Positions 2,640 to 23,976 of a stretch of DNA of 25,029 nt are shown piece after piece. How positions within the stretch are numbered: the stretch's first letter is position 1; every line of letters starts with the position of its first letter. The stretch comes from a virus. Below the pieces are notes generated by a model, which was not told where the DNA came from, made no database searches, and saw only the letters and a program-made list of their open reading frames with translations. Made by a program: the position numbers and the translations under genes. Where the stretch lies: positions 1 to 25,029 of IMG/VR virus record IMGVR_UViG_3300047319_001302. The stretch is one strand, 5' to 3'.

Positions 2640-4958
2640 TTAAATTGCCGGGCCATTAAACTGCGGCCCTGGCCCGCCCTGCCCCGCGGCATAAGCCCCG
2701 GCGGCGAATTTGAGCTCCACTTCCCTCTGCTTCACCGCCGCCTCGGCCTCGACCTTAGCGCGCGCGATCAGCAAATCGTGCTGGGCTTTCTGCTGCTCCA
2801 AATCCATCTCGTGCTGCTGCTTCTGCTGCTCCAGCATCATCTGATGCTGTTGCTTCTGCTGCGCTAATTGCGCCTCCAGCTCGGCCTTCTGCTGCGCCGC
2901 CGCGGCATCGGCCTGCGCCTTCATTTGCACCGCCGCTACCGCCGCCTGCGCCTTGATCTGCGTCGCCTGAACCGCGGCCTGTGCCTGCATCGCGCCCGGA
3001 TCGGGCGGCGGTGGCCCACCCGGCGGTGCCGCGCCAGGCGGCGGCGGCTGCGACGGGTCGGCGAAAAACGATTGCTTAAACCCGGCATTCTCCTGCAACG
3101 CCTTCAACGCATCGTAGACATTCTGCGTATAAACCAGCGGCCCCTTCGGCCCGCCCTGCTGCTGCACGATCCCGTTCTGCAGCTGCACCACCGTCATCAG
3201 ATGCGTCAGGACCTGGTCGCGGTTGCCCGTCCCCAATCCCACCGATACCGTCACCGGCATCGCCTCGCGCCACTCGCGCGGGTCGATCCGCAGCCAGCCG
3301 CCGGTCACCCGGATGATCCGCTCCTGCTGCTGGTGCTTGCGCACCAGGCCGAGAATGCCGCGCATGAGCTGCTCGACGCCGTGCGCGAAGATCCGGGCAA
3401 ACAGCTCGACCCGCTGCGCCTGCGCGCCCTGCGCCATCGCCAGACCGGCAGCCGTCGTATTCGACAGGGCGTCGGGGGAAATCGCGTTGTTCTGTCGCGC
3501 GACCCCGGTGCGGATTTCCTGCGTCTCGTCGATGTACTGCACCAGCGGAAAGCTCTTATCCGCCGTGTACGGGATCATCATCGGCTGAATGCCGCCAAGG
3601 CGGCGCGACCGAACGATGCCCCCCGGCCGCAGAGTCAGCAAATCATCAAACGTATTTTCGTTAACAGAGTCGTCGGCTACTTCAATTCGCGGCCAATTCG
3701 ACAGATACGCATTGTCGACCATCTGCCGCACGATCGACGACTTGATCTCCTGCAAATCGGCCGTCAGATCCGCCAGCGACAACCCCACCAGCCGGTGCGA
3801 TTGCGGGATCGGCGTGATCGGGACAAATTGGATCTCATCAGCACACTCGATGCACGCCTCGCCGTTCTTGGTGAGGATGATCAACCCGTGCCCGGCGGTC
3901 ATCACCTGGTACAATTCGGTGGTCTTGCCGTCCTTGCTGAGCTGGGCGTAATTCTCCTCGACCCAGATGTGCCGCGCCGGGGTGCGCGCATCGTCCTGAA
4001 ACGGCGGCAGATCGTCGCCACGAAACCGCTCGACCCGCTCGATATTCATTTCCATGTCGTCGTGCAGCGGCACCAAATCGAGCGTGTCCTCGTCGTAGCC
4101 CTGCTCGACCAGGTCGCTGTAGGTCCACCGCCGCCGGTGCGCCAGAAACGGGATGTCGCCGCGCTTGGCCCGCCGCGAAAACAGGATCTCCTCCGGCGCG
4201 ACGTTCTCAATGCGGATGCGCGGAAACTCGCGCGTCGTCCGCAACGTCACGTCAATCAGCTCGATTTCGGGCGGCGGGGCCGGAGGCATCGGCGGCATCG
4301 GCGGCGCCGGCGGCATGCCCGGCACCATCGACGCCTGCGGTTGCTGCGGCGGCGGCGGAAACGGCAGGTCCAAGCCAAAACTATCGCGCGGCTGCTTGTA
4401 GCGCCGCTCCTTCACGATCTCGACCTCGGCCTCACCCAGCAATGCATCCAATTGCGGCTGCACCAGCCCGGTGTAGCTCTGCGTCTCCACCTCGCGCTGC
4501 GTGTCGGCCCAGTATTTGACCCAGCCGAGCCGCTCGAGCAGCGCATCCTTGAACCAATCATGCAAAATCATGAAGCCGGGGTTTTCGCGCTCGAATATGT
4601 GGTTGACGTACTCCGTCGCCTGCTTTGCCGCCTGCTCCATCCCCGGCCGCGGCGGCTCCACGATGCAAATCTGATCGCTCGCGGTGAAAATCCGCATCAA
4701 GGCCGGCAATACCCACTCGACCGCCTCAAGGACGGATCGCATGACCACATTCGACCGGTCAGTGCCGACCGGGCCCGGCAACTCGCCCTCGTAATATTTG
4801 AGCGCCTGCAGCCGGTCCTGGCTCAGACTGCCGCCGTCCTGACCCAGCGCCTCGTCCAGCTCGCGCTGCACGATCGCCTTCACCTCGTCCTCGTCCCAAT
4901 CGCCCCCGATCCCCTGCGGGATGTTGCCGGGCCGGTCGGAACCGTAGGGGCTGCCCAT
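2640..4958 (-). CDS. Portal protein (P22-like)
   Basis: The portal forms the dodecameric ring at one capsid vertex through which the terminase pumps DNA and to which the tail joins. This 772-residue protein has the size and pattern of P22-type portals. Residues about 48-95 (LQALKYYEGELPG, DRSNVVMRSVLEAVEWVLP) match the conserved N-terminal region. An insertion at about 205-235 is a P/M-rich loop. Residues 520-600 form the stem/wing region. The last 130 residues are a Q/A/K-rich coiled coil (repeated EQQKQQH), like the long helical barrel of P22. It starts at ATG 4,958, 13 bp after the upstream stop. The order terminase, portal, scaffold supports it. Confidence 0.88.
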   Translation of the reverse strand: MGSPYGSDRPGNIPQGIGGDWDEDEVKAIVQRELDEALGQDGGSLSQDRLQALKYYEGELPGPVGTDRSNVVMRSVLEAVEWVLPALMRIFTASDQICIVEPPRPGMEQAAKQATEYVNHIFERENPGFMILHDWFKDALLERLGWVKYWADTQREVETQSYTGLVQPQLDALLGEAEVEIVKERRYKQPRDSFGLDLPFPPPPQQPQASMVPGMPPAPPMPPMPPAPPPEIELIDVTLRTTREFPRIRIENVAPEEILFSRRAKRGDIPFLAHRRRWTYSDLVEQGYDEDTLDLVPLHDDMEMNIERVERFRGDDLPPFQDDARTPARHIWVEENYAQLSKDGKTTELYQVMTAGHGLIILTKNGEACIECADEIQFVPITPIPQSHRLVGLSLADLTADLQEIKSSIVRQMVDNAYLSNWPRIEVADDSVNENTFDDLLTLRPGGIVRSRRLGGIQPMMIPYTADKSFPLVQYIDETQEIRTGVARQNNAISPDALSNTTAAGLAMAQGAQAQRVELFARIFAHGVEQLMRGILGLVRKHQQQERIIRVTGGWLRIDPREWREAMPVTVSVGLGTGNRDQVLTHLMTVVQLQNGIVQQQGGPKGPLVYTQNVYDALKALQENAGFKQSFFADPSQPPPPGAAPPGGPPPPDPGAMQAQAAVQATQIKAQAAVAAVQMKAQADAAAAQQKAELEAQLAQQKQQHQMMLEQQKQQHEMDLEQQKAQHDLLIARAKVEAEAAVKQREVELKFAAGAYAAGQGGPGPQFNGPAI

Positions 4959-5709: not shown

Positions 5710-6179
5710 ATCCAGCCGCCGCGCGGCATCATCTGGTTGAGCGGGCCGGATGTCCGCAACGCCGACGCCGCCCGGTCGTTATAATCCCGGCCCTGGATCG
5801 CCTGATCCAAGTCCACCGGCAAGGCGCCCTGGTTAAACCGCCGCAGCAAATCATGCAGGCTGCGCATCGACGCATCGACACTCGCCCCCGGCATTGCCGG
5901 CGGCTGAAATTGCGGCGCGGCCGGCACCACCGTGTCGCGATTGCCCCTCGGCGCCGCCGCACGCCCGTAAATCCCCGCATCATTCGGGTCGGTCGCGCTG
6001 AAATTGAAATCGCGCCCGCCCGGCGGCACCACATTGTCGCCACCCAGCCGCCACGGCTCCTGCGCCGGGATCCCCGCCGGCGGCGGCCCATACCAAAACC
6101 CCGGAGGCGGCTCGGCCGCCGGGCCGCTCGGCGCCCAACCACCCAAATACGCCCGCAATACGTCAAGCACGTCCGGCAT
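5706..6179 (-). CDS. Proline/glycine-rich phage protein
   Basis: 157 residues from the ATG at 6,179, which overlaps the upstream stop as TGATG; the longer reading to 6,368 is low-complexity and rejected. It begins MPDVLDVLRAYLGGW, continues with a proline-rich region (AAEPPPGFWYGPPPAG) and ends with a helical segment (SVDASMRSLHDLLRRFNQG) and QMMPRGGWM. The pattern suggests a flexible virion-associated or assembly protein. No family recognised. Confidence 0.65.
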   Translation of the reverse strand: MPDVLDVLRAYLGGWAPSGPAAEPPPGFWYGPPPAGIPAQEPWRLGGDNVVPPGGRDFNFSATDPNDAGIYGRAAAPRGNRDTVVPAAPQFQPPAMPGASVDASMRSLHDLLRRFNQGALPVDLDQAIQGRDYNDRAASALRTSGPLNQMMPRGGWM

Positions 6180-6433
6180 CAGCGGTCGCGCCGCTTCGCC
6201 AGCAACGCCGCCCGCGCCTCCCGGTCGACCGCGTGATCCGGCTCCGCCCCGTACAGCGCACCCGATACATCCTCCCCCTCGACACCCTTGCGCAGCCGCG
6301 CCACCTCGGCCTCCAGCGCCGTCAGCCGGGCCGCCAGCGAGGCGTTGCCCGCGCGGATCTCGCCCCACACCGTCTCAACCTGCTGCACCCGCTCCGCCAA
6401 CGCCTCAAACATCCGCGCGTCGCTGCTGCTCAT
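6179..6433 (-). CDS. Small coiled-coil protein
   Basis: 84 residues from ATG 6,433, which overlaps the TGA of the TGT-like gene as ATGA. Residues about 8-50 form a heptad-like coiled coil (LAERVQQVETVWGEIRAG, LTALEAEVARLRKG). The C-terminal part is charged (DREARAALLAKRRDR). The opening MSSSDA also begins the 37-residue ORF at 7,274-7,387, hinting that the two genes share a translation-start cassette. Function unknown. Confidence 0.65.
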   Translation of the reverse strand: MSSSDARMFEALAERVQQVETVWGEIRAGNASLAARLTALEAEVARLRKGVEGEDVSGALYGAEPDHAVDREARAALLAKRRDR

Positions 6434-7068
6434 CCACACACCCTCTCCGGCGCAAACAAATCCGTTTGCCGCGCCGCGTATGTCAGCATCGGCGTGGTCG
6501 CCGCATAACGCGATGCACTCGACCCGTCGATGCTGGTTGCGCCCGCCGCCGCAGCCATCGCCATCCGCTTGGCACTGTTGACCCGCGCAACGTGGTAATG
6601 CACCCCGTGCTCGGCGCAAAACCTGCCCCATTCCGCCATCGTCGCCAGTTTCCACTCGGTGCTGCCGCCGAGAAAAATCCCAACCCGCGAACCGATATGC
6701 GGCTCCAAATCACTCGTTTGCATGCCGTCCTGCACCGCTATCAACACCAGCGGCGCGACCGACAGGCATCGGTTCATGTACCGCAGCGACAGCGCCAGGC
6801 TATCAAGCCCGCCGGCAACGATATCCGGCAACACCAGCCAGTCGGCGACAACCGGCTGAGCAGCGAGCCAATCGAGAAACGCCTCATAGCGGTCCTCGTC
6901 GAATTGGCGCCCGGCTTGGTGATCAGACCAGGCGCCGTTATCGCCGCAGATCCGCCCAAACCCTTCTGTCCGCCACTCGGCGGCGCGTGATACCAGGAGC
7001 CCCCATCCGTGCCGCCTTAGCGCGTCGAGGTTTCGCCGCGTCCCGGTCCGGCTGGCGTAGCAGATCAC
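6430..7068 (-). CDS. TGT/DpdA-like TIM-barrel protein (putative 7-deazaguanine transglycosylase relative)
   Basis: A 212-residue protein that begins MICYASRTGTRRNLDALRR. It has a DNGAWS motif (43-48), a PDIVAGG motif (81-87), AVQDG (111-115), FLGGSTEWK (132-140), and HVARVNS followed by GATSIDGSS (166-174). A series of short conserved segments ending in Gly-rich and Asp motifs in this order is what I associate with the tRNA-guanine transglycosylase superfamily and its phage DNA-modifying branch (DpdA), which swap guanine for a 7-deazaguanine. It is shorter than classical TGTs (about 370), and I see no Zn-binding CxCxxC site or preQ0 synthesis genes nearby. Fold assignment moderate; activity not established. 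Coupled on both sides by ATGA. Confidence 0.5.
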   Translation of the reverse strand: MICYASRTGTRRNLDALRRHGWGLLVSRAAEWRTEGFGRICGDNGAWSDHQAGRQFDEDRYEAFLDWLAAQPVVADWLVLPDIVAGGLDSLALSLRYMNRCLSVAPLVLIAVQDGMQTSDLEPHIGSRVGIFLGGSTEWKLATMAEWGRFCAEHGVHYHVARVNSAKRMAMAAAAGATSIDGSSASRYAATTPMLTYAARQTDLFAPERVCG

Positions 7069-7277
7069 CGTATCCCGGCATCCCTGGCGCGAAGCGTCTG
7101 TGCCGCGCGTGCGTCCTCCTGCGAGATCAGCTCGTCAAGTCCGAGCAGTGCCCGCAGAACGTGCTCGCGGCTACCGACGAAATCTTCCTTGAACATAATC
7201 CCGGCCTGCAGCAGCACTTTTAGCGCATCCGCCAGGGAGTTGCGGACGGCGCAGATCTGCTCATGATCATCCATCAT
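7065..7277 (-). CDS. Small helical protein
   Basis: 70 residues beginning MMDDHEQICAVRNSLADA. The ATG at 7,277 overlaps the upstream TGA as ATGA, and the stop overlaps the TGT-like gene as ATGA. The protein is a helical, leucine-rich single domain (LKVLLQAGIMFKEDF, LRALLGLDELISQED). It could partner the TGT-like protein given the double coupling, but nothing in the sequence proves it. Confidence 0.65.
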   Translation of the reverse strand: MMDDHEQICAVRNSLADALKVLLQAGIMFKEDFVGSREHVLRALLGLDELISQEDARAAQTLRARDAGIR

Positions 7278-7387
7278 CGCCGATCCACCCACAGCCACAG
7301 CCGCAGGATCACTTCCAGCCACCACGCGTCCGCCAGCGGATCAGGATGCACCGTCGCCGCCTGAATCGCCGCGTCGCTGCTGCTCAT
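7274..7387 (-). CDS. 37-residue ORF with tryptophan-rich C-terminus
   Basis: The ATG at 7,387 is preceded by a good Shine-Dalgarno (GGGAGCG). The peptide starts MSSSDAAIQAATVHPD and ends with a hydrophobic, Trp-rich helix (WWLEVILRLWLWVDRR) that could lie in or on a membrane. Its stop overlaps the next start (ATGA). The longer open frame to 7,558 is a shadow of the 62-residue gene. Confidence 0.5.
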   Translation of the reverse strand: MSSSDAAIQAATVHPDPLADAWWLEVILRLWLWVDRR

Positions 7388-7670: not shown

Positions 7671-7916
7671 TCAGCGCAGCCCGGACGCAACCGCCTTCGC
7701 AATGTACAGCTCATCCTGAGAAAGCTGGATCGCACCAACCCCGACGCTCACCTCTTGACCCAAGTGCCCAATACACTCACGCTGGATCATCTCCACCAGC
7801 ACATCCCACACGCCTCGTGGCAAGGCCAGCTTCGGAAACAAATCGGCAAAGGCACCAACCACCTCCTCCGCAATCTCCTGACAACCTTCCCACTCGGCCA
7901 ACTCCTCCTTCGTCAT
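7671..7916 (-). CDS. Small helical protein next to terminase
   Basis: 81 residues from ATG 7,916, which overlaps the terminase TGA (TGATG); a GTG three bases earlier (7,919) is an equal alternative. It begins MTKEELAEWEGCQEIAEE and is helical throughout, with LPRGVWDVLVEMIQRE in the centre. No motif I recognise. It is the first gene after terL in transcription order. Confidence 0.65.
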   Translation of the reverse strand: MTKEELAEWEGCQEIAEEVVGAFADLFPKLALPRGVWDVLVEMIQRECIGHLGQEVSVGVGAIQLSQDELYIAKAVASGLR

Positions 7917-9214
7917 CACACTATCCCCAGCGGCGCATACTTCAGCGCCTTCGGCCGGCCCCGCGGCGCCTCATACGCCACGCACATCAGCCCAAACGCA
8001 TCCGCGCAATGACTGCTCCAATCGTGCTCGGGCCCGAGGCCGACGTCGCGCACATCCTCCGACTTGCGCTCGTGGTACCAAGCCAAAGCCTCCCGGCCCG
8101 CCTCGGTGGTGTCTTCATTGAACCATATCGACGGAAAAAGCCTTCTCCCCGCCTCGATCCGGGCCCGCGCCGCGCCCCGGCCCTGGTTCGGGATCACCTC
8201 GACGCTGAACCCAGCCTGGCGGAAGGCGCTCTCAAACGACACCTCGTACACCCTGTCGTGCGTCGCGCCGTCATGCGGCAAGTACACATTCGCCTTGCCC
8301 CAGCCCTTCTCCCGCAGCCACGCCACGTGCACCGCAAGGGGCTCACCAACGGATTCGTAATAGTCGAGGATTCGGACTTCCCCGCGCCCGACAAACTGCA
8401 CCACCCACTGCGCATACGCGTCGCTCCGGGCCCCCGTGCCGCCAATGTCGACATACACCCGCACCGGCAAGAGCGGATCCTTGCTGACGTGCCCGATCCG
8501 GCCTTCTTCCTTCGCCTCATTCAGCAGCCGCGCGTAATACGCACCGACATGGCCGGTGGCGAATTCGCCTAACCACACATGCCCGTACTGATCCGGCCGC
8601 CGGATCTCGTCCTCCCGCCGGATCTGCTCCAATGTCGCCGGAAACCACGGATTGTCCCGGTACGTCAGGCCGACGATCTTGCTGTTGTCCGGCGGCGTCT
8701 CCCGGAAACGCTGGTTGGTCGCCGAGGCGCGCCGCTCCGGGTTCCACGTCACCCAGATCTCGCTGCCCGTCTCACGCACCGTCGGGATCGTCTTCTGCCA
8801 GGCTATCTCCGATACCTGCTCCGCCTCGTCCACCCAGAGAAGGCGTATTCTGGCGGTGGATTTCACCGATTCGATATTCCGCCGCAGCCCGACAAAGCTA
8901 AAGTCGATGCGGCCGTCACGGGTCCGGATGTACTTCTCGCCAACCTCGTAGTGGCCCGCCAACCATGGCTCGCTCTCGATCGCCAGCTTGATCTCCGCCA
9001 TCGATGACTCGTCGAGGCTGTTCTGAAACTCGCGCCCGCAGACAATCACCCCCGACTGGTTGGCCATGCTGCAGCGCAGGCCATACACCGCCGCCATCTT
9101 CGCAAAGGATCGGCTTTTTGCCGATCCCCGGCCGCCCCAGGCGCCGCGATACAGCGCCTCGCCCGAGAAGACCGGGATCAGCTTCTCCGGCAGCTCGATC
9201 GACTGCGCACTCAT
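7916..9214 (-). CDS. terL: Terminase large subunit
   Basis: The packaging motor ATPase and headful nuclease. The 432-residue reading starts at ATG 9,214, overlapping the upstream TGA as ATGA. Visible motifs: Walker A GGRGSAKS (27-34), Walker B LLWVDE (125-130), coupling motif TWNP (156-159). The RNase-H-like nuclease has Asp256 (YVDIGGT), Asp315 (LPHDGATHD) and Asp405 (SHCADAF) as the likely metal triad. Length and order match the terminase_3/PBSX-type family. The small subunit lies 1.2 kb upstream rather than directly adjacent, with an unknown gene and a gap between. Stop overlaps the next gene. Confidence 0.93.
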   Translation of the reverse strand: MSAQSIELPEKLIPVFSGEALYRGAWGGRGSAKSRSFAKMAAVYGLRCSMANQSGVIVCGREFQNSLDESSMAEIKLAIESEPWLAGHYEVGEKYIRTRDGRIDFSFVGLRRNIESVKSTARIRLLWVDEAEQVSEIAWQKTIPTVRETGSEIWVTWNPERRASATNQRFRETPPDNSKIVGLTYRDNPWFPATLEQIRREDEIRRPDQYGHVWLGEFATGHVGAYYARLLNEAKEEGRIGHVSKDPLLPVRVYVDIGGTGARSDAYAQWVVQFVGRGEVRILDYYESVGEPLAVHVAWLREKGWGKANVYLPHDGATHDRVYEVSFESAFRQAGFSVEVIPNQGRGAARARIEAGRRLFPSIWFNEDTTEAGREALAWYHERKSEDVRDVGLGPEHDWSSHCADAFGLMCVAYEAPRGRPKALKYAPLGIV

Positions 9215-9822
9215 CCCCGGCTCGCCCGCAATAACCGCCGAGCTCCCTCTACCCGATACAGCGCTTCCGTCTGCCAATATACCGGCGTCAGCTCACCTTG
9301 CTCGGTGAGCCCAAGCCGAGCCAGCGTGTCCAGCCGCTCGCGATCCGCCTGCCGCGCAATCTCGTCCTCACGGCGGGCCACCGCGATTTGTCGCCGCCGC
9401 TCCGCTTGCCGCCACTGCCGATCACTCTCCGCCCGGTACTCCGCCTCGCGCTCAGCCCGCGCCGCCTCCCAGGCTTGCTGCGCCCTCGCCGGCGCCGCAC
9501 TCGTCGGACGGGGCGACGCGTCGCCATAGCGCGAGCCGCTCGCCGTGTACTCCCGCCCGTCCGGACCAAACAGCGTGTCCTTGTGCCGCCTGAGAAAATC
9601 CTCCCAACTGTCGCCACTCGACGGCGACACCGCCTCGATCACGTCAATGCGGCCGCATTTGCGGATCTCCGCAATTACCGACGCCGCATCCGCCTCAAAC
9701 CATTCCGCCGGCAATACCGCAGCCCAGCGGCTGCCCCAATACCCACGCCGCGCCCGCGCGTGAAAGCGCAATGCCACCGCACGCCGACGGTTCTCTACCG
9801 GCTCCAGCCGCAATTCGCTCAC
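9211..9822 (-). CDS. Charged helical protein upstream of terL
   Basis: 203 residues from GTG 9,822 (GTGA overlap with the upstream ORF). The N-terminal 75 residues look like a compact alpha/beta domain (RGYWGSRWAAVLPAEWF, RIDVIEAVSPSSGDSW). Residues about 115-170 are an R/E/A-rich coiled coil (WEAARAEREAEYRAESDRQW). The C-terminus is LTPVYWQTEALYRVEG. It sits between the two terminase subunits. Not recognised; a packaging or DNA-associated accessory role is only an inference from position. Confidence 0.7.
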   Translation of the reverse strand: MSELRLEPVENRRRAVALRFHARARRGYWGSRWAAVLPAEWFEADAASVIAEIRKCGRIDVIEAVSPSSGDSWEDFLRRHKDTLFGPDGREYTASGSRYGDASPRPTSAAPARAQQAWEAARAEREAEYRAESDRQWRQAERRRQIAVARREDEIARQADRERLDTLARLGLTEQGELTPVYWQTEALYRVEGARRLLRASRG

Positions 9823-10438: not shown

Positions 10439-10945
10439 CTAGCCCTCGTCATCCGGCTTGGGTAGACGCTTCGGAGCGACCGGGACTAGCTGGATCATTG
10501 TAACCAGCGGCCGATCCGGGTCGCCCGTCAGCTCCTGGGTGACTTTGTCACCGAATTGGCGCGGCAGAAGCTTGGATAACAGCCACTTCCTGTTGTCACA
10601 CATCAGCCTGGCACGCTGCACCAGAGCGTTGTCGGGAATACCATTCACTGTGATGTCAGCGTCACCGATTTCGATTACCTCTTCAGCGACGCTTTCGAGG
10701 CCCATTTCCCTTGCGCGAGCGTATTGCGAACCGACAGTGTCGGGCCATTTCCTCACCCACTTCCGCACTGCCATTTCATCTGGCAGTGACGGATCACGGC
10801 AGATGGAGCGAAGGCTTTCACCTGCGGTAAGGCGATCGAGGATCAACTCGAGGACTTCGTCTGAATAGACGGGTTGCGATCCATTACGACCGCCGCGTTT
10901 AGCGGGAGCAGCCTTTTGCATGGCAGGATTAGCGGTGGTTTGCAC
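10439..10945 (-). CDS. terS: Terminase small subunit (Sf6-like)
   Basis: The small terminase recognises the packaging site and recruits the large subunit. The 168-residue reading starts at GTG 10,945; ATG 10,921 is an alternative giving 160. The N-terminal DNA-binding part is typical: YSDEVLELILDRLTAGESLR, then ICRDPSLPDEMAVRKWVRKW (helix-turn-helix about 45-70). The central helices (YARAREMGLESVAEEVIEIG, ALVQRARLMCDNRKWLLSKL) and the PRQFGDKV motif are hallmarks of the Sf6-type small terminase-like family. Length and location in front of terL agree. The AT-richer codon use differs from terL. Confidence 0.85.
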   Translation of the reverse strand: MQTTANPAMQKAAPAKRGGRNGSQPVYSDEVLELILDRLTAGESLRSICRDPSLPDEMAVRKWVRKWPDTVGSQYARAREMGLESVAEEVIEIGDADITVNGIPDNALVQRARLMCDNRKWLLSKLLPRQFGDKVTQELTGDPDRPLVTMIQLVPVAPKRLPKPDDEG

Positions 10946-13585: not shown

Positions 13586-14052
13586 GCGGCGGCCTCCGCA
13601 GGCGCGAGCGGCAGTGCCCATGCGGCGACTGTCACCGGGCTGATTGTTACCACCAGTTTGGGCTGGAGCCCGTAGATTTTGCGGGCGCGGGCCTCGACAA
13701 TGAGGGCGTCGTCTCTAAACACCACACCGTTGAATGCGTCGGCCATTAACTTCCACAAATTATCCAGATCGGGCCTGCCGCTTGGCCGGATGAGCCCTAA
13801 GATGGCGAGATTGCGGCGCTTTCTGCTCCAGCTTGCCGGGATCGGCAGCTCCGCCAGCAGCTCGACCGACACCGGCTCGTCGAGCACGGCGGCGCCCATG
13901 TGCAGCATGGTGTTGGCGGCTTCGATGCGGAGCGCGGCCATTGCGTTGCGCTGCGGCGCGGGGACGAAGTGGGCGCCGGTGCGGGCGGCGATACGCATCC
14001 TCGCAAATGGAGTCGGAGGCCCCATAAGGACCACAGTCACGGGCTTAGACAT
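13582..14052 (-). CDS. rusA: RusA-family Holliday junction resolvase
   Basis: Cleaves four-way junctions during phage recombination and before packaging. The 156-residue protein has the RusA layout: beta-strand start (PVTVVLMGPPTPFARMR), a basic middle (IPASWSRKRR), and the catalytic block GRPDLDNLWKLMADAFNG followed by VVFRDDALIVE. The acidic residues Asp95, Asp97 and Asp115 and Lys101 sit where RusA's metal ligands and lysine are expected. Start ATG 14,052 overlaps the 3' end of the homing endonuclease gene by 8 bp. Confidence 0.88.
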   Translation of the reverse strand: MSKPVTVVLMGPPTPFARMRIAARTGAHFVPAPQRNAMAALRIEAANTMLHMGAAVLDEPVSVELLAELPIPASWSRKRRNLAILGLIRPSGRPDLDNLWKLMADAFNGVVFRDDALIVEARARKIYGLQPKLVVTISPVTVAAWALPLAPAEAAA

Positions 14053-14785
14053 TGCCGCGTTCCTCGCGCCACTTAGCCCAACGGCGCAACTGCCCTTCGG
14101 TCAGCTTCTTCCTGGTTTCGTCAGAAGGGGACCGTCCTCGCATAGCGTCGGCTCGCGCTTTAACGGCGGCGGGATCGGCTTTGCGGCCAGTCAGCGACCG
14201 CGAGATCTTTGCTCGCTGTTCTGGCGATATGATCCGCCCTTTAGCTATTCGCGATAGCGTTTCCCGATGTGTTTTCGACAAGGGCCTGCCGGTTTGAATG
14301 TCGATCAGGCGCTGAACATGTTCAGGCGACAGTTTGCGCCCGCGCTGCGGGCCAATAACGCGCTCGACGAACTCCGGGTCTTGCCAAAGTGCCTTGCGCG
14401 CCGCACGCATGCGCTCGCGTGTCTCGTCACTTACGTCATAAGCTCCGTCACCGCCGCCGGTTAAATTGTATCCGCCGTCGCGCACGTGTGTTTTCAGGGA
14501 GACGATTAACTCTTGCTCTAGGCGTGCTAGCGACGCTTTGTCATCAGCGGTTGCGATGACTTCGAAGCGGAAAGCCCTGACGCCATGTCGCGCTAGGGCT
14601 CGATGAATAAGATGCAGCGGGCTGTGCTTTGCGGTTGATATGTGGGAAGCCCATCGCGCGCTCGGATGCCTCGTTGTTACGCCGATATAAGCCGCGCCGG
14701 TCTTGATGTTGGCGATACGATAGACGTACCCAAACGAGGCGACGGGCTCGCCGAGGAGTGACACCGTGATCGGCTGCGCGGTCAT
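14045..14785 (-). CDS. GIY-YIG homing endonuclease with rusA-like leader
   Basis: The ATG at 14,785 overlaps a 22-residue ORF as ATGA; a GTG at 14,797 is possible. Residues 19-110 form a GIY-YIG nuclease domain: YVYRI then AAYIGVT (the GIY and YIG strands), Arg44, His48, a conserved Glu in LEQELIVSL, and YNLTGGGDG. Residues 115-240 are repeated DNA-binding modules of the NUMOD type (SDETRERMRAARKALW, LSPEHVQRLI, LSKTHRETLSRIAKG, SDETRKKLTEGQLRRW). The first 16 residues (TAQPITVSLLGEPVA) do not belong to the nuclease. They resemble the start of RusA (SKPVTVVLMGPPTP), the next gene, suggesting insertion at the rusA 5' end. Confidence 0.85.
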   Translation of the reverse strand: MTAQPITVSLLGEPVASFGYVYRIANIKTGAAYIGVTTRHPSARWASHISTAKHSPLHLIHRALARHGVRAFRFEVIATADDKASLARLEQELIVSLKTHVRDGGYNLTGGGDGAYDVSDETRERMRAARKALWQDPEFVERVIGPQRGRKLSPEHVQRLIDIQTGRPLSKTHRETLSRIAKGRIISPEQRAKISRSLTGRKADPAAVKARADAMRGRSPSDETRKKLTEGQLRRWAKWREERGNV

Positions 14786-14850
14786 GCGGTTGTCCACCGC
14801 TCATTCCAGTCTTTGAACGCGAACTGGCGCAACCCTTCCATGCCGGTCAC
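14782..14850 (-). CDS. 22-residue linker ORF
   Basis: GTG 14,850 overlaps the methyltransferase TGA (GTGA), and its own TGA overlaps the homing endonuclease ATG (ATGA). The peptide contains LRQFAFKDWNERWTTA. Perfect junctions on both ends suggest it is translated, either as a real tiny gene or as the remnant of a gene cut by the homing-endonuclease insertion. Confidence 0.4.
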   Translation of the reverse strand: MTGMEGLRQFAFKDWNERWTTA

Positions 14851-15782
14851 CGGACAAACCCAAATTGGCTGAACACGTTGCGGAAACGGTCACCGTGCGG
14901 GCCATAGTAGAAGAAGGCTTGGCCTTGAGTCGGCATGCACTCGTCGCCATCGGGGTCGACGAACTTCACCCGGCCGCGGGTGAAACACAGCAGGTCGGCG
15001 GCCGACTCGGCGTGGTGGAACCATGCACCATCGGTGTAATTGTGGGTGAGGACGATGGCCTGGGCGACGTTGCGCGCGGTGACTTCATCGACCAGCTTAG
15101 CGATGAACTGGCCGACCAGGGGGGCAGCGTAGGGTGGGTTAAGCCACACCCGGCCGTGCCAGGGTTGCACCAGGCCGTTGTCGGCGGCGGTGTAGTGGCT
15201 GATGGCGCGCACGATCTGCTGCGCCACCGGGTGGGTTGCCGGGTCGAGGTCGATCTCGCCCATCACCTCGCGGGCGGCCTCGATGTATTGCGCCGGGGTA
15301 AACCACTCGTTGTTGCCGGTGCCGAGCGCGCGGAAGTTTTCGTCCGCTTCCAGCCCCGCCTTGCGATAGGCGGCAACGATCTGCTGTGAGCGGTATTTAA
15401 CCTCGTCGGAGAGCTTCTTAGCCCACCGGGAGACGGTGTCTACGCGAATGCCGCTTAGCTCGGTGGCCTTGCTGGCAGACAAGATAGCAGGGTCTGCAAT
15501 CTTGTTTCGGCCGAGGCCGTGCCCGATGCTGACATTCTCATTCCACCAGCGGACGAAGTCCTGCTGTTCGTCAATCTTTAGCTCGATGGCCTGCTCCAGC
15601 AGCGGCCAATCTTTAACCCGAGCCGCATACTCGATGATGGCATCGGCCTTTGCCTGCTCGACCTTGGTTGCTTCCGGCGACACGGCCGGCAAGCCGCTGA
15701 GGTGCCGCAGCCTCAGCGCACCCACGGCCGCATAATACGAGTCGTGCAAATCGACGCTGGCGTCGTAGGTGCGCTCAGCCAT
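14847..15782 (-). CDS. Phage DNA N-6-adenine methyltransferase (Dam family)
   Basis: Methylates adenine in the phage DNA, commonly to evade host restriction. The 311-residue protein has an N-terminal region of about 95 residues, an HTH-like segment at about 100-127 (ASKATELSGIRVDTVSRWAK), and a Dam-type catalytic domain from residue 158: NEWFTPAQYIEAAREVMG, EIDLDPAT, and the catalytic NPPY at 215-218 (VWLNPPYAAP). The C-terminus has a VKFVDPDGD and QGQAFFYYG pattern typical of phage Dam proteins. No restriction enzyme is visible. ATG 15,782; its TGA overlaps the next ORF. Confidence 0.88.
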   Translation of the reverse strand: MAERTYDASVDLHDSYYAAVGALRLRHLSGLPAVSPEATKVEQAKADAIIEYAARVKDWPLLEQAIELKIDEQQDFVRWWNENVSIGHGLGRNKIADPAILSASKATELSGIRVDTVSRWAKKLSDEVKYRSQQIVAAYRKAGLEADENFRALGTGNNEWFTPAQYIEAAREVMGEIDLDPATHPVAQQIVRAISHYTAADNGLVQPWHGRVWLNPPYAAPLVGQFIAKLVDEVTARNVAQAIVLTHNYTDGAWFHHAESAADLLCFTRGRVKFVDPDGDECMPTQGQAFFYYGPHGDRFRNVFSQFGFVR

Positions 15783-17279: not shown

Positions 17280-17336
17280 ACGGCTTAGCCAAGCGACTAG
17301 CGACGGCGCTTTCCTCCCTTCGACCGGGCGGCGGGT

Positions 17337-17350
17337 GTGCAATTTTGCAC
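17337..17350. promoter_or_regulatory. Operator O4
   Basis: GTGCAATTTTGCAC, both half-sites perfect, directly abuts the -35 TTGACG of the rightward promoter. Confidence 0.8.
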
Positions 17351-17379
17351 TTGACGTACGTGCAGGAATGCACATCATT
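17351..17379 (+). promoter_or_regulatory. Rightward early promoter
   Basis: -35 TTGACG (17,351-17,356), a 17-bp spacer that contains operator O5, then -10-like ATCATT (17,374-17,379). The layout matches the leftward promoter base for base in spacing. It would drive the ParB-to-integrase operon. Confidence 0.55.
17360..17373. promoter_or_regulatory. Operator O5
   Basis: GTGCAGGAATGCAC, both half-sites perfect, lies 23 bp after O4, the same distance as O1 to O2, inside the promoter spacer. Confidence 0.8.
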
Positions 17380-17436
17380 GCTCCCACGACCGGCACCAAC
17401 CCATCCCGGGCGTGTGCCCTCGTGAGGAGTGTTGTG

Positions 17437-18456
17437 ATGAGTGATACCAAGACGACGACCTGGGCGCCGGCAGTGCGGTGCGATCTGACGGCCGGGTCGC
17501 AGGCGTTCGCGCATGCGGTCGAGAAGTTCCGCGCCTGGGCGGCGGAACAGCAACGCCCGTCGCTGGATTTTCTTACGACGGGGTGGCACACGATCACCCC
17601 GGAGATTGCGGAGCAGTTGCTGATCTGCAACCGGCATAACCGCAAGCTGCGCTATACCGATGTGCTGCGTTATGCCACCGATATGTCGACGGGGCGGTGG
17701 CTCAAGACCGGCGAGCCGGTGATCATCACCGACGCCGGCGATCTCGAGGACGCCGGGCACCGCTGCATGGCGTGCCTGTTCTCGGGCTGCTCGTTTCCGA
17801 CGTTCGTGGTAACCGGCGTTCCGCACGACGACCAGTTGTTCAGCTTCATCGACAACGGTGTCTCCCGCACCGGGGACGATACGCTGCACTGTGCCGGGCT
17901 CAACGGGCTGAGCGGCAACATCCAGTCGGCGATCAAGAACTACGCCATCCGCTACGACGAGGGCTTGCTGCACTGGCACGGGCGTCCGTCGATTACGCCG
18001 ATCGCCAACCACCACATTCTCGACTATGCGCAGGCGCATCCGTCGCTGGCGGTGGTGGCGCACAAGGTGGCGGACGTCTACCAGGCGGCGATCCGGCGGC
18101 TCGACGACAAGGTTGCGGCAACCTTTGTCGGATGGAAGATCCACGAAGCCTACGGCACTGGCGTGTTTGACGAGTTCATGATGTCGCTGACGCAATCGGA
18201 TCTGCCCGCTGGGCATCCGGTTCTGGTGCTGCAGAAGCGTCTTGATGACCACGAGGCAGCCAAGGACGCGGCGCCTCGGTCGGCCAAAGCTAAGTTCAAG
18301 CTCAATGGCGTCAAGACCGTGGTGCTGGCGATGCGCGCCTTTCTGTATTGGCAGGAGGGTCGGATGAACGTGCGGCGGCTCGATCCCGGTATGGATGATC
18401 CGTTCCCCCGGATCGAGAAGCCGGAGGAAGGCGAACTCGCCGCCGCCGCACAATAA
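17437..18456 (+). CDS. ParB-fold (ParB/Srx-like) phage protein
   Basis: The ATG at 17,437 has an AGGAG Shine-Dalgarno 8 bp upstream; the frame back to 17,335 crosses the operators and is rejected. The 339-residue protein has a ParB-nuclease-like domain at about 50-150: TITPEIAEQLL, NRHNR (65-69), DVLRYATDMSTGRWLKTGEP, DAGHR (105-109) and SFIDNGVSRTGDD, a pattern I know from phage 'ParB-like' proteins whose box II has the GxxR signature. The C-terminal 180 residues are helical. The role could be gene regulation, DNA nicking or partition; not known. First gene of the rightward operon. Confidence 0.75.
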   Translation: MSDTKTTTWAPAVRCDLTAGSQAFAHAVEKFRAWAAEQQRPSLDFLTTGWHTITPEIAEQLLICNRHNRKLRYTDVLRYATDMSTGRWLKTGEPVIITDAGDLEDAGHRCMACLFSGCSFPTFVVTGVPHDDQLFSFIDNGVSRTGDDTLHCAGLNGLSGNIQSAIKNYAIRYDEGLLHWHGRPSITPIANHHILDYAQAHPSLAVVAHKVADVYQAAIRRLDDKVAATFVGWKIHEAYGTGVFDEFMMSLTQSDLPAGHPVLVLQKRLDDHEAAKDAAPRSAKAKFKLNGVKTVVLAMRAFLYWQEGRMNVRRLDPGMDDPFPRIEKPEEGELAAAAQ

Positions 18457-18464
18457 CTCGACAG

Positions 18465-18493
18465 GGGCGGGGGGAAACTCCCGCCCTTCTTTT
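18465..18493 (+). terminator. Hairpin with T-rich tail between the two ParB genes
   Basis: GGGCGGG (18,465-18,471) and CCCGCCC (18,480-18,486) flank GGAAACT, followed by TTCTTTT. It looks like an intrinsic terminator, but the downstream gene is 15 bp away in the same direction, so it probably attenuates the operon. Confidence 0.7.
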
Positions 18494-18507
18494 GCAGGAT
18501 CAGCCCG

Positions 18508-19545
18508 ATGCCATACCCCCATCACCCCGACACTGAACTCTTTCCGATGCTGTCGGAGGACGAACTAATCGAGCTTGCCGACGATATTGCTGCCAATGGA
18601 CTGTATGAGGCGATCAAGCTCGACCCTACCGGCGAGATTCTGGTTGACGGCCGCAACCGCGAGGCGGCCTGCGATATAGCCGGTGTCGAACCGCGCTATG
18701 TGCGCCTGCCGGATGGCACTGACATCTTCGCTTACATCGTCGCGACGAATCTGCGCCGCCGACATCTGTCCGCCGCCACGCGCCACGACGTTATTCGCGC
18801 AATAGCAGCCCGTAACCCAGATTTGAGTAATCGGCAAATAGCCAAGCTGGCCAACGTCAGTCATGTGACTGTAGGACAAGCAATCTCCGTTCAACTGGAC
18901 AGGGGCCTTCCAGTTGAACGCAAGACCATCGGTGCCGATGGAAAGTTAAGACCGGCATCGGGGAAGATCAGCGAAGTAACCAGAGCGGCGGTTATTGCAG
19001 ATTTAAAAAAATATCCCTGGGAGCAGCGCGACATCGCCGAGCGCCACGGCGTCTCGGTCGGCACCGTCGCCGGCATTAAACGCCGCCTCAAATCGGAGGG
19101 CGGTTTACCCAAGCCCACCACGCCGACCATCGCTGAGCAGCTGGCCAAACGCGCTGCCAATCTGCCGCGTTTCGACACGATGACCCGCGAAGAACGTGGC
19201 ATGGGCTCGCGCGAATACGGCGCCGAGCAGCACCCGGAGTACCCGCCGGGCTGGACCCGCGACCATGTCCACCGCGAGAAGTACGGACGCATCCAGATTT
19301 ACACGCCGGCGCAAATTGAGGAGCAGGCGCTCGCGAAACGCAACATTGCGAGCATCGGGGGATTAAAAATCTTCTTCGAAAACGCTCTCGATATCGAGGA
19401 CCTAGACAGACTCAGCGAAAATTCGCAGGAGTTTAACGACCTCCAGGTAGAAAAATTCGGCCCGCGAGTCCTCGATTTGATTGCCGGGTATCTCGCCCGC
19501 ATCAAAGCCCGCAAAGCGCCCAAGCTGACGATCGTAAAGCCGTGA
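18508..19545 (+). CDS. ParB-like DNA-binding protein
   Basis: 345 residues from ATG 18,508 (AGGA Shine-Dalgarno). The N-terminal ParB domain includes LADDIAANGLYEAIKLDP and GEILVDGRNREAACDIAG (42-59) and an LRRRHLSAATRHDVIRA helix pair. Residues 106-126 (LSNRQIAKLANVSHVTVGQA) and 172-194 (RDIAERHGVSVGTVAGIKRR) are two separate helix-turn-helix units. The final 120 residues are a distinct domain (FFENALDIEDLDRLSENSQE). ParB proteins use CTP to slide on DNA in partition, but related phage proteins act as regulators. No parA is present. Stop overlaps the next start (GTGA). Confidence 0.82.
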   Translation: MPYPHHPDTELFPMLSEDELIELADDIAANGLYEAIKLDPTGEILVDGRNREAACDIAGVEPRYVRLPDGTDIFAYIVATNLRRRHLSAATRHDVIRAIAARNPDLSNRQIAKLANVSHVTVGQAISVQLDRGLPVERKTIGADGKLRPASGKISEVTRAAVIADLKKYPWEQRDIAERHGVSVGTVAGIKRRLKSEGGLPKPTTPTIAEQLAKRAANLPRFDTMTREERGMGSREYGAEQHPEYPPGWTRDHVHREKYGRIQIYTPAQIEEQALAKRNIASIGGLKIFFENALDIEDLDRLSENSQEFNDLQVEKFGPRVLDLIAGYLARIKARKAPKLTIVKP

Positions 19546-22795: not shown

Positions 22796-22981
22796 ATGTC
22801 TCGCGGGCCAACAACATTCCGACAACGGGACGTGTCCGCAGCCATGAAGGCGGCGACGGACGCCGGCTATGCCGTGGTCCGGGTCGAAATTGACAAGACC
22901 GGGAAGATCATTCTCGTAACGTCAAAGGCGGGCAATACCGTCGAGGAGGAGGTGGCCAAGTGGGACGCGGCGCTCTCGTGA
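22796..22981 (+). CDS. Small conserved-looking protein before integrase
   Basis: 61 residues: MSRGPTTFRQRDVSAAMKAA, TDAGYAVVRVEIDKTGKIIL, ending EEVAKWDAALS. An RQRDV-x-A helix followed by a beta-hairpin (VRVEIDKTGKIILVTS) recurs in rhizobial prophages just upstream of integrases in my experience, but the function is unknown. It might be a small DNA-binding or excision-related factor; this is only positional inference. Its TGA overlaps the integrase GTG. Confidence 0.7.
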   Translation: MSRGPTTFRQRDVSAAMKAATDAGYAVVRVEIDKTGKIILVTSKAGNTVEEEVAKWDAALS

Positions 22982-23976
22982 GACTGAAGTACATTCACCA
23001 ATTCCGCGACCGCTACGGACAGGTCCGCTACTACTTCCGACGCGACGGCCGCCGCACGGCGCTTCCCGGCGCACCTGGGACACTGGAGTTCATGGAGGCT
23101 TACCACAGAGCCTCCGCAGGCTTTGAGGTGCCCCAGCGTGCGTCTAGCGCGGCGGGATCGGTTTCCGCCGTGATCGCCGCCTATTACCAGCACAATGCAT
23201 TTGTCGCGCAGGCTGCCAGCACCCGAGCGACCCGCCGGCGCATCCTCGAAAACTTCCGCGCCGAGCATGGTGCGCTTTCAATCACCGGGCTGCGGGCAAA
23301 TCATATTGCCAAGATACTCAGCGGGAAGACGCCGGGGATGGCGAAGCAGTGGATGAATGCGCTGCGCGGCCTAATGCGGTTTGCAGTGCTGATCGGGGCG
23401 TGCCCGACCGATCAGACTGTCGGGCTTAAAGCTCCCCTCATATCCAGCCCCGGCCACCATAGTTGGACCGAAGACGAGATCGCCCGATATATAGCGCGGC
23501 ACCGGATCGGAACGCGCGCCCACCTCGCGATGGGGCTACTGCTTCACACTGCCGCCCGGCGGGGCGACATCGTGCGCCTCGGCCCGCAGCACATCCGCAA
23601 CGGCGTGTTGACCTACGTTCAGCAGAAAACGAAGCGGCGCCTGGAAATTCCGGTCGCAGCCGAGCTTGTCGAGATCATCGCCGCGTCGGCGGGCGGCCAT
23701 TTGACCTTTCTGACAACCCAAGCCGGAATGCCCTACAGCGCTGAGGGGTTTGGCAATCTGTTTCGACAGTGGTGCAACGAGGCTGGGTTGCCGCACTGCT
23801 CCGCGCATGGGTTACGCAAGGCCCAAGCCCGGCGGCTCGCCGAGGCCGGCTGCAGCGCACCGCAGATCGCTGCCATCACGGGGCATAAGACGCTGAGCGA
23901 GGTACAGCGCTACATCGAGGCGGCATCACAGAAGACGCTCGCGGTAGCCGCGATGAGGACCGTAGCGCGAACATGA
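22978..23976 (+). CDS. int: Tyrosine-type integrase
   Basis: Catalyses site-specific integration and excision. The start is set at GTG 22,978 (GTGA overlap), giving 332 residues; GTG 22,960 would add six. An N-terminal arm-binding part (RLKYIHQFRDRYGQVRYYFR) and core-binding domain (about 60-150) precede the catalytic domain. Catalytic residues: Arg194 (TAARRGD), a Lys in QKTKRR, His277 and Arg280 (HGLRK), His303 (ITGHKT) and Tyr312 (QRYIEAA). It is the last gene of the repressor-controlled rightward operon and lies beside the tRNA-fragment attachment site. Confidence 0.93.
   Translation: MRLKYIHQFRDRYGQVRYYFRRDGRRTALPGAPGTLEFMEAYHRASAGFEVPQRASSAAGSVSAVIAAYYQHNAFVAQAASTRATRRRILENFRAEHGALSITGLRANHIAKILSGKTPGMAKQWMNALRGLMRFAVLIGACPTDQTVGLKAPLISSPGHHSWTEDEIARYIARHRIGTRAHLAMGLLLHTAARRGDIVRLGPQHIRNGVLTYVQQKTKRRLEIPVAAELVEIIAASAGGHLTFLTTQAGMPYSAEGFGNLFRQWCNEAGLPHCSAHGLRKAQARRLAEAGCSAPQIAAITGHKTLSEVQRYIEAASQKTLAVAAMRTVART

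Follow-up and report, generated by a model that had tools for sequence, protein, structure and literature searches.

A short DpdA-like protein of the tRNA-guanine transglycosylase superfamily, predicted to place host-made 7-deazaguanine in phage DNA

The closest described systems to the gene considered here are those of phages that carry the transglycosylase DpdA, which was defined in PMC6884629, a paper that also lists 76 phages with DpdA and no preQ0 genes. The DNA of one DpdA-only phage, Orion, was unmodified, and that of another, 7-11, held traces of dADG (PMC6884629). For MED16, likewise DpdA-only, PMC8306585 reports dADG at 0.13% of G plus m6dA, and the Orion result is explained there by the lack of preQ0 biosynthesis genes in M. 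smegmatis. Phage-encoded YhhQ has been noted as well, with no correlation with any phage group (PMC6884629). Solo DpdA genes are thus already known, as is a DpdA gene beside terminase: phage Megan has two DpdA genes, together with que genes, directly before TerL. The first-pass annotation of the locus described below had presented both its solitary transglycosylase gene and the position of that gene among late and packaging genes as unusual, and in light of these precedents neither is.

The stretch of DNA that we analysed (the window) is an entire IMG/VR record of 25,029 bases. It is linear, with a tyrosine integrase gene at the right (22960-23976, plus strand) that suggests a temperate phage, and it has no tail genes; because it is linear and tail genes are missing, the record is probably incomplete. 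A leftward operon on the minus strand encodes the small and large terminase subunits, TerS (10439-10945) and TerL (7916-9277), and, by a library match, the portal protein (2640-4958). Within this packaging and head operon lies the gene for a short DpdA/TGT-superfamily transglycosylase of 212 aa (6430-7068, minus strand), which starts with GTG at 7068 and ends at 6430. As read from the sequence, its start overlaps the stop of an 86-aa ORF directly upstream (7065-7325, minus) in a GTGA at 7068-7065, and its own end overlaps an 84-aa frame of no assigned function directly downstream (6179-6433, minus) in an ATGA at 6433-6430. Because of these overlaps with both neighbours the gene appears coupled within the operon, which agrees with its earlier description as translated with late genes. 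Homologues of the 86-aa ORF also stand just upstream of the short gene in two related loci (L003 and L018). We do not take the late-operon position as a functional clue, since the place of the gene varies between relatives and the Megan DpdA is next to TerL; several short-family members adjoin RecE/RecT genes.

The adenine methyltransferase that had been attributed to the phage is present: a Dam-type N6-adenine DNA methyltransferase (14847-15782, minus; Pfam Dam PF05869, PHROG 111) is its second DNA modification gene. As had also been stated, no preQ0-synthesis gene was found across the 25-kb window, itself a probably incomplete record. Other genes in the window include a homing-type GIY-YIG endonuclease with a NUMOD3 motif (14045-14797, minus), located between RusA and the Dam methyltransferase gene, and a 393-aa protein with DUF7178 / PHROG 3842 (1269-2450, minus), which has no assigned function and lies downstream of the portal gene. 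Two adjoining genes at 17335-19545 (plus) encode a 373-aa PHROG 5931 protein, also of no assigned function, and a ParB-like/HTH protein.

What lies at 6430-7068 is a genuine, intact and conserved ORF, not a chance frame. All five segments that first drew attention to it (DNGAWS, PDIVAGG, AVQDG, FLGGSTEWK and GATSIDGSS) occur in this ORF in the order claimed, and they represent the most conserved positions of a 90-sequence alignment of the family. In this alignment D82, Q113, G115, F132, G134, G135, K140, H159, R162 and D181 are invariant, D43, N44, G45, V163, N164, S179 and G182 are conserved at least 90%, and the window protein keeps every one of these residues. Comparison with relatives 67-73% identical gave dN of 0.23-0.31 and dS of 1.6-3.2, the latter near saturation, for a dN/dS of about 0.1-0.2; because dN is far below dS, the window protein is under strong purifying selection.

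Members of this family are widespread. Three queries scanned against viral contigs yielded overlapping sets of at least 552, 191 and 336 relatives. Bacterial genomes contributed 79 loci, a good many of them from Caballeronia, Paraburkholderia, Pseudomonas, sphingomonads and actinobacteria. In Caballeronia sp. INDeC2 (L118 9776-10666) and Pseudomonas nitroreducens (L142 9821-10682) the member is split over two ORFs, possibly as a broken copy. Among phage records, identity to the window protein is 46% for the proteins of Erythrobacter phages R6L and ZS04 and about 27-30% for relatives in Mycobacterium and Arthrobacter phages. Several of the latter are labelled 'DpdA-like tRNA-guanine transglycosylase', including the short-family members Phegasus gp54, Aoka gp40 and Sonali gp81, and these names are annotation only. 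R6L gp10 is labelled 'hypothetical', and the 'DarB-like antirestriction protein' label of the ZS04 member (L013 20001-20642) is unsupported by our analysis. Pfam, NCBIfam and PADLOC models gave no usable match to the window protein; DUF3151 was rejected as its family (E 0.034, under the cut-off of that model), and PF01702, the canonical TGT model, did not match up to E 1. PHROG 15826, labelled 'unknown function', covers the full length of the protein (E 6.5e-42). A search of PDB sequences with the window protein, as a single sequence or a profile, retrieved no TGT.

Homology to DpdA is reached only by profile-profile methods. An hhalign comparison with 16 phage DpdA proteins gave a probability of 95.9% (E 5.8e-9, 148 columns), and use of the whole family (217 rows) gave 95.4% (E 1.8e-8); none of 30 column-shuffled controls scored above 0.8% against DpdA. 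The match grows with the size of the DpdA set, from 12% with a single sequence to 77% with 11 and 96% with 16. A DpdA HMM built for this study, and phmmer with two DpdA proteins, did not retrieve the short family. In the profile alignment, D43 falls on the aspartate of the DpdA motif DSGA, D82 on LD, G134-G135 on GG, and D181 on the aspartate of DSS. A small set of bacterial TGTs aligns over the second half of the protein (VQDG, GGST, RVN and SIDG; pairwise E 1e-4), with VQDG on VQGG, GGST on GGLSVG, and SIDG on the nucleophile motif FDC. The C-terminal zinc site of TGT (CxCxxC...H) is absent from the window protein, whose end comes about 30 residues past D181. Judged by these profile comparisons, the window protein belongs to the TGT superfamily and is remotely homologous to DpdA. 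The alignments also single out four codons, all on the minus strand, whose products are candidate functional residues: D43 (6940-6942) in the DNGA motif, matching DSGA in DpdA and the aspartate of DSGGF in TGT; D82 (6823-6825) in PDIV, matching LD..G in DpdA; Q113 (6730-6732) in VQDG; and D181 (6526-6528) in SIDG, the putative nucleophile.

Structure prediction had been set beforehand as the test of a TIM-barrel, TGT-like fold, and the assignment survived it: AlphaFold2 run on the 90-sequence alignment produced a small TIM barrel with high confidence (pLDDT 96.8, pTM 0.92). The best structural match among viral models was a 499-aa protein of an uncultured marine virus (BFVD A0A0F7L9Z1; 43% identity), a longer relative that contains the short-family domain and in which a fusion to another domain may exist. 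The best named viral matches (E 5e-7 to 2e-6) came from Arthrobacter phage Mufasa8 and Microbacterium phage Megan and are queuine tRNA-ribosyltransferases, and the Sonali DpdA was also among the viral matches. When Foldseek was run against the PDB, TGT chains appeared from rank 5 and among the top 50, mixed with pyruvate kinases and epimerases. Re-alignment with VIA-align ranked pyruvate kinases first, and the absence of TGT among the 50 matches listed is uninformative either way. The modelled barrel is thus compatible with TGT, and is generic enough in comparison with the PDB that it does not prove a TGT.

The genomic surroundings of the family link it strongly to preQ0 genes. Models made from the Que proteins of Sonali and PSASB_03, plus neighbour-cluster models, were searched in 324 family loci, which reduce to 229 non-redundant loci at 95%, and a gene was counted as a preQ0 neighbour when it lay within 1.5 kb on the same strand. 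Such a gene adjoins the short gene in 102 of the 229 loci. In 45 it is biosynthetic (QueC, QueD, QueE or FolE), the locus types being QueC alone (19), QueC+D+E (9), QueD alone (7), QueE alone (4) and 5 other combinations; in 57 it is a YhhQ/VUT-type importer. No locus combines synthesis with import, against 11 expected under independence, but the pattern is confounded with clade and host group. Nearly all marker matches in the 229 loci fall within 1.5 kb of the short gene (QueC 33/34, QueD 20/22, QueE 15/16, Vut 57/57), a zone that makes up 22% of the bases in the loci; the binomial reckoning ignores shared ancestry. Across the family tree there are at least 29 switches between having and lacking a preQ0 neighbour. 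The neighbours score above the cut-offs of established models: QueE above TIGR04508 in L028, L045 and L036, QueD above TIGR03367 in L068, and QueC, PTPS, FolE and Vut_1 above those of Pfam. These preQ0-linked relatives, along with the barrel, the 96% match to DpdA profiles and the second-half alignment to TGT, support the original description of the window protein as TGT/DpdA-like.

No preQ0 gene lies near the window gene or near its closest relatives, all of which are solo. In locus L028, whose protein is 68% identical to that of the window, the short gene overlaps a genuine QueE gene, and therefore the linkage to the pathway reaches the window's own clade. Searches of whole contigs found QueC, QueD or FolE in a minority, and found none of the three in the 91-kb contig of a 73% identical relative (L018). 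In Phegasus, which grows on M. smegmatis, and in Aoka, a VUT importer lies directly upstream of the short member. Arthrobacter phage Sonali (L017 4881-9874) encodes both the short member gp81 and a classic DpdA, gp87, with ParB, QueC, QueD and QueE.

Host gene content fits a pattern in which the precursor is made, imported or borrowed. QueC and TGT are both present in all 29 of the proteobacterial genomes checked whose members are solo (no que or VUT neighbours). Among nine genomes with VUT-linked members, 6 are without convincing QueC and 7 without TGT. Members in Nocardia and Nonomuraea do not follow the pattern: their hosts lack QueC, and no importer is nearby. Enrichment next to the short transglycosylase gene was also seen for PAPS-reductase-like (PP-loop) genes (30 of 43 PAPS-like matches in the 229 loci). 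In 17 loci, most of them from Caballeronia or Paraburkholderia, a 606-aa form follows closely downstream (for example, L095 10719-12539). A cassette of the Nonomuraea type combines a PP-loop/PAPS-like gene, a cytosine methyltransferase of about 640 aa, a 262-aa PP-loop gene and the short transglycosylase (L163 5593-10744, L165 5707-10588, L167 5420-10591), and its hosts are without QueC or TGT, with no importer nearby. Because of this cassette and the enrichment of PP-loop genes, one could imagine that in some lineages the short enzyme inserts a new DNA base outside the known 7-deazaguanines, an idea that we consider doubtful.

Taken with the conserved motifs, these findings make it probable, in our view, that the short proteins are a miniature DpdA subfamily, with the window enzyme predicted to insert host-made 7-deazaguanine into phage DNA. 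If the enzyme works as TGT does, D181 would attack a guanosine of the phage DNA at its sugar carbon, guanine would leave, and a 7-deazaguanine, either preQ0 or one of its derivatives, would be put in; D43, D82 and Q113 are among the residues predicted to recognise the incoming base. Because no precursor gene adjoins the window gene, its enzyme would draw on the host queuosine pathway, and thus the window phage probably borrows the modified base from its host. MED16 is a precedent for a solo DpdA whose precursor is presumed to come from the host (PMC8306585). Elsewhere in the family, members would carry out some of the precursor synthesis on their own (QueC, QueD, QueE, FolE) or take the precursor up through an importer (YhhQ/VUT). 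Together with adenine methylation by the phage itself, the exchanged guanines may protect its DNA against host nucleases. The first-pass annotation had left a choice between a host precursor and a new role: we favour the former and set the latter aside, since relatives carry pathway genes and DpdA-only phages, like the position near packaging genes, have precedents, so that an unaccompanied gene does not call for a new role. Counting against the proposed insertion of 7-deazaguanine is the lack of a nearby preQ0 gene in 127 of the 229 loci, among them the window locus and those of its closest relatives. A solo gene may also be little active, given that Orion is unmodified and that 7-11 and MED16 show traces only (PMC6884629, PMC8306585).

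Those solo loci, which are more than half of the total, together with Orion, which has DpdA only and is unmodified (PMC6884629), would also be expected if solo members were degenerate or accessory barrels that bind without exchange, or that depend on precursor from a helper phage or host, the gene being a passenger. The strong purifying selection and the retention of all invariant residues in the window protein make this quite unlikely, as does the ability of the hosts of proteobacterial solo members to make the precursor. It is likewise unlikely that the short enzyme modifies host or phage tRNA and not DNA, tuning translation late in infection. Such a role would suit the late-operon position in the window, the homology to TGT as well as DpdA, and the TGT-like VQ.G glutamine where the DpdA set has histidine. 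It fits poorly with the missing C-terminal zinc subdomain, with a profile similarity far stronger to DpdA than to the (smaller) TGT set, and with proteobacterial hosts that own a TGT already; moreover, DNA methyltransferases, not tRNA genes, recur beside the short gene, and no QueA or QueG/QueH partner was noticed.

The exchange is reversible in principle and the gene is found in many prophages, and so the enzyme might instead serve counter-defence, by removing or replacing the 7-deazaguanines of a host Dpd system or by supplying a mark that mimics the host's. We find this very improbable because physical linkage to precursor synthesis and import points to insertion. Least credible of all is an unrelated TIM-barrel enzyme with convergent motifs: the comparison of folds with the PDB does place pyruvate kinase and epimerase barrels level with or above TGT, yet the homology to DpdA withstands profile controls and the family is linked to preQ0 genes. 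The insertion of 7-deazaguanine into DNA is our preferred reading.

If this reading is correct, 7-deazaguanine modification of DNA would extend among phages and mobile elements far beyond what the DpdA groups described so far imply, and about 205 residues would be enough for its chemistry. The make, import or borrow pattern, in which making and importing never occur together, could serve as a direct rule for predicting the source of the precursor, and it would become testable what sets DpdA-only phages with modified DNA apart from those without. Phage YhhQ goes with one subfamily here, whereas PMC6884629 found no correlation with a phage group. The minimal DpdA subfamily and its make-or-import neighbourhood look new, although the short family may have been named earlier. 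Further DpdA subfamilies are reportedly described in a later paper.

In comparison with bacterial TGT (PF01702), the short protein likewise forms a TIM barrel in which VQ.G, GG, G/R-V-x-T/N and D motifs align in order, and it differs in having no PF01702 match and no zinc Cys/His cluster and in being about 160 aa shorter. The short protein also resembles phage DpdA, the 7-deazaguanine DNA transglycosylase (types of 9g, CAjan and Rosebush; here Sonali gp87, Knocker, Megan and others). The barrels are homologous, the motifs D(S/N)GA..G, (L/P)D, H or Q, GG, H and D(S/G) follow in the same order at similar spacing, and both groups are linked to QueC/D/E/FolE. Short members are about 200-220 aa, compared with about 280-360 aa for DpdA, they have the VQDG glutamine where DpdA has histidine, and they often have only one pathway gene, or an importer, alongside. 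The DpdA of MED16 clusters with proteobacterial TGT homologues in a comparison that seemingly did not take in the short family (PMC8306585). The window phage shares with the DpdA-only phages MED16, 7-11 and Orion a transglycosylase gene without preQ0 genes, and in MED16 the presence of m6dA beside dADG (PMC8306585) provides a precedent for two modifications side by side.
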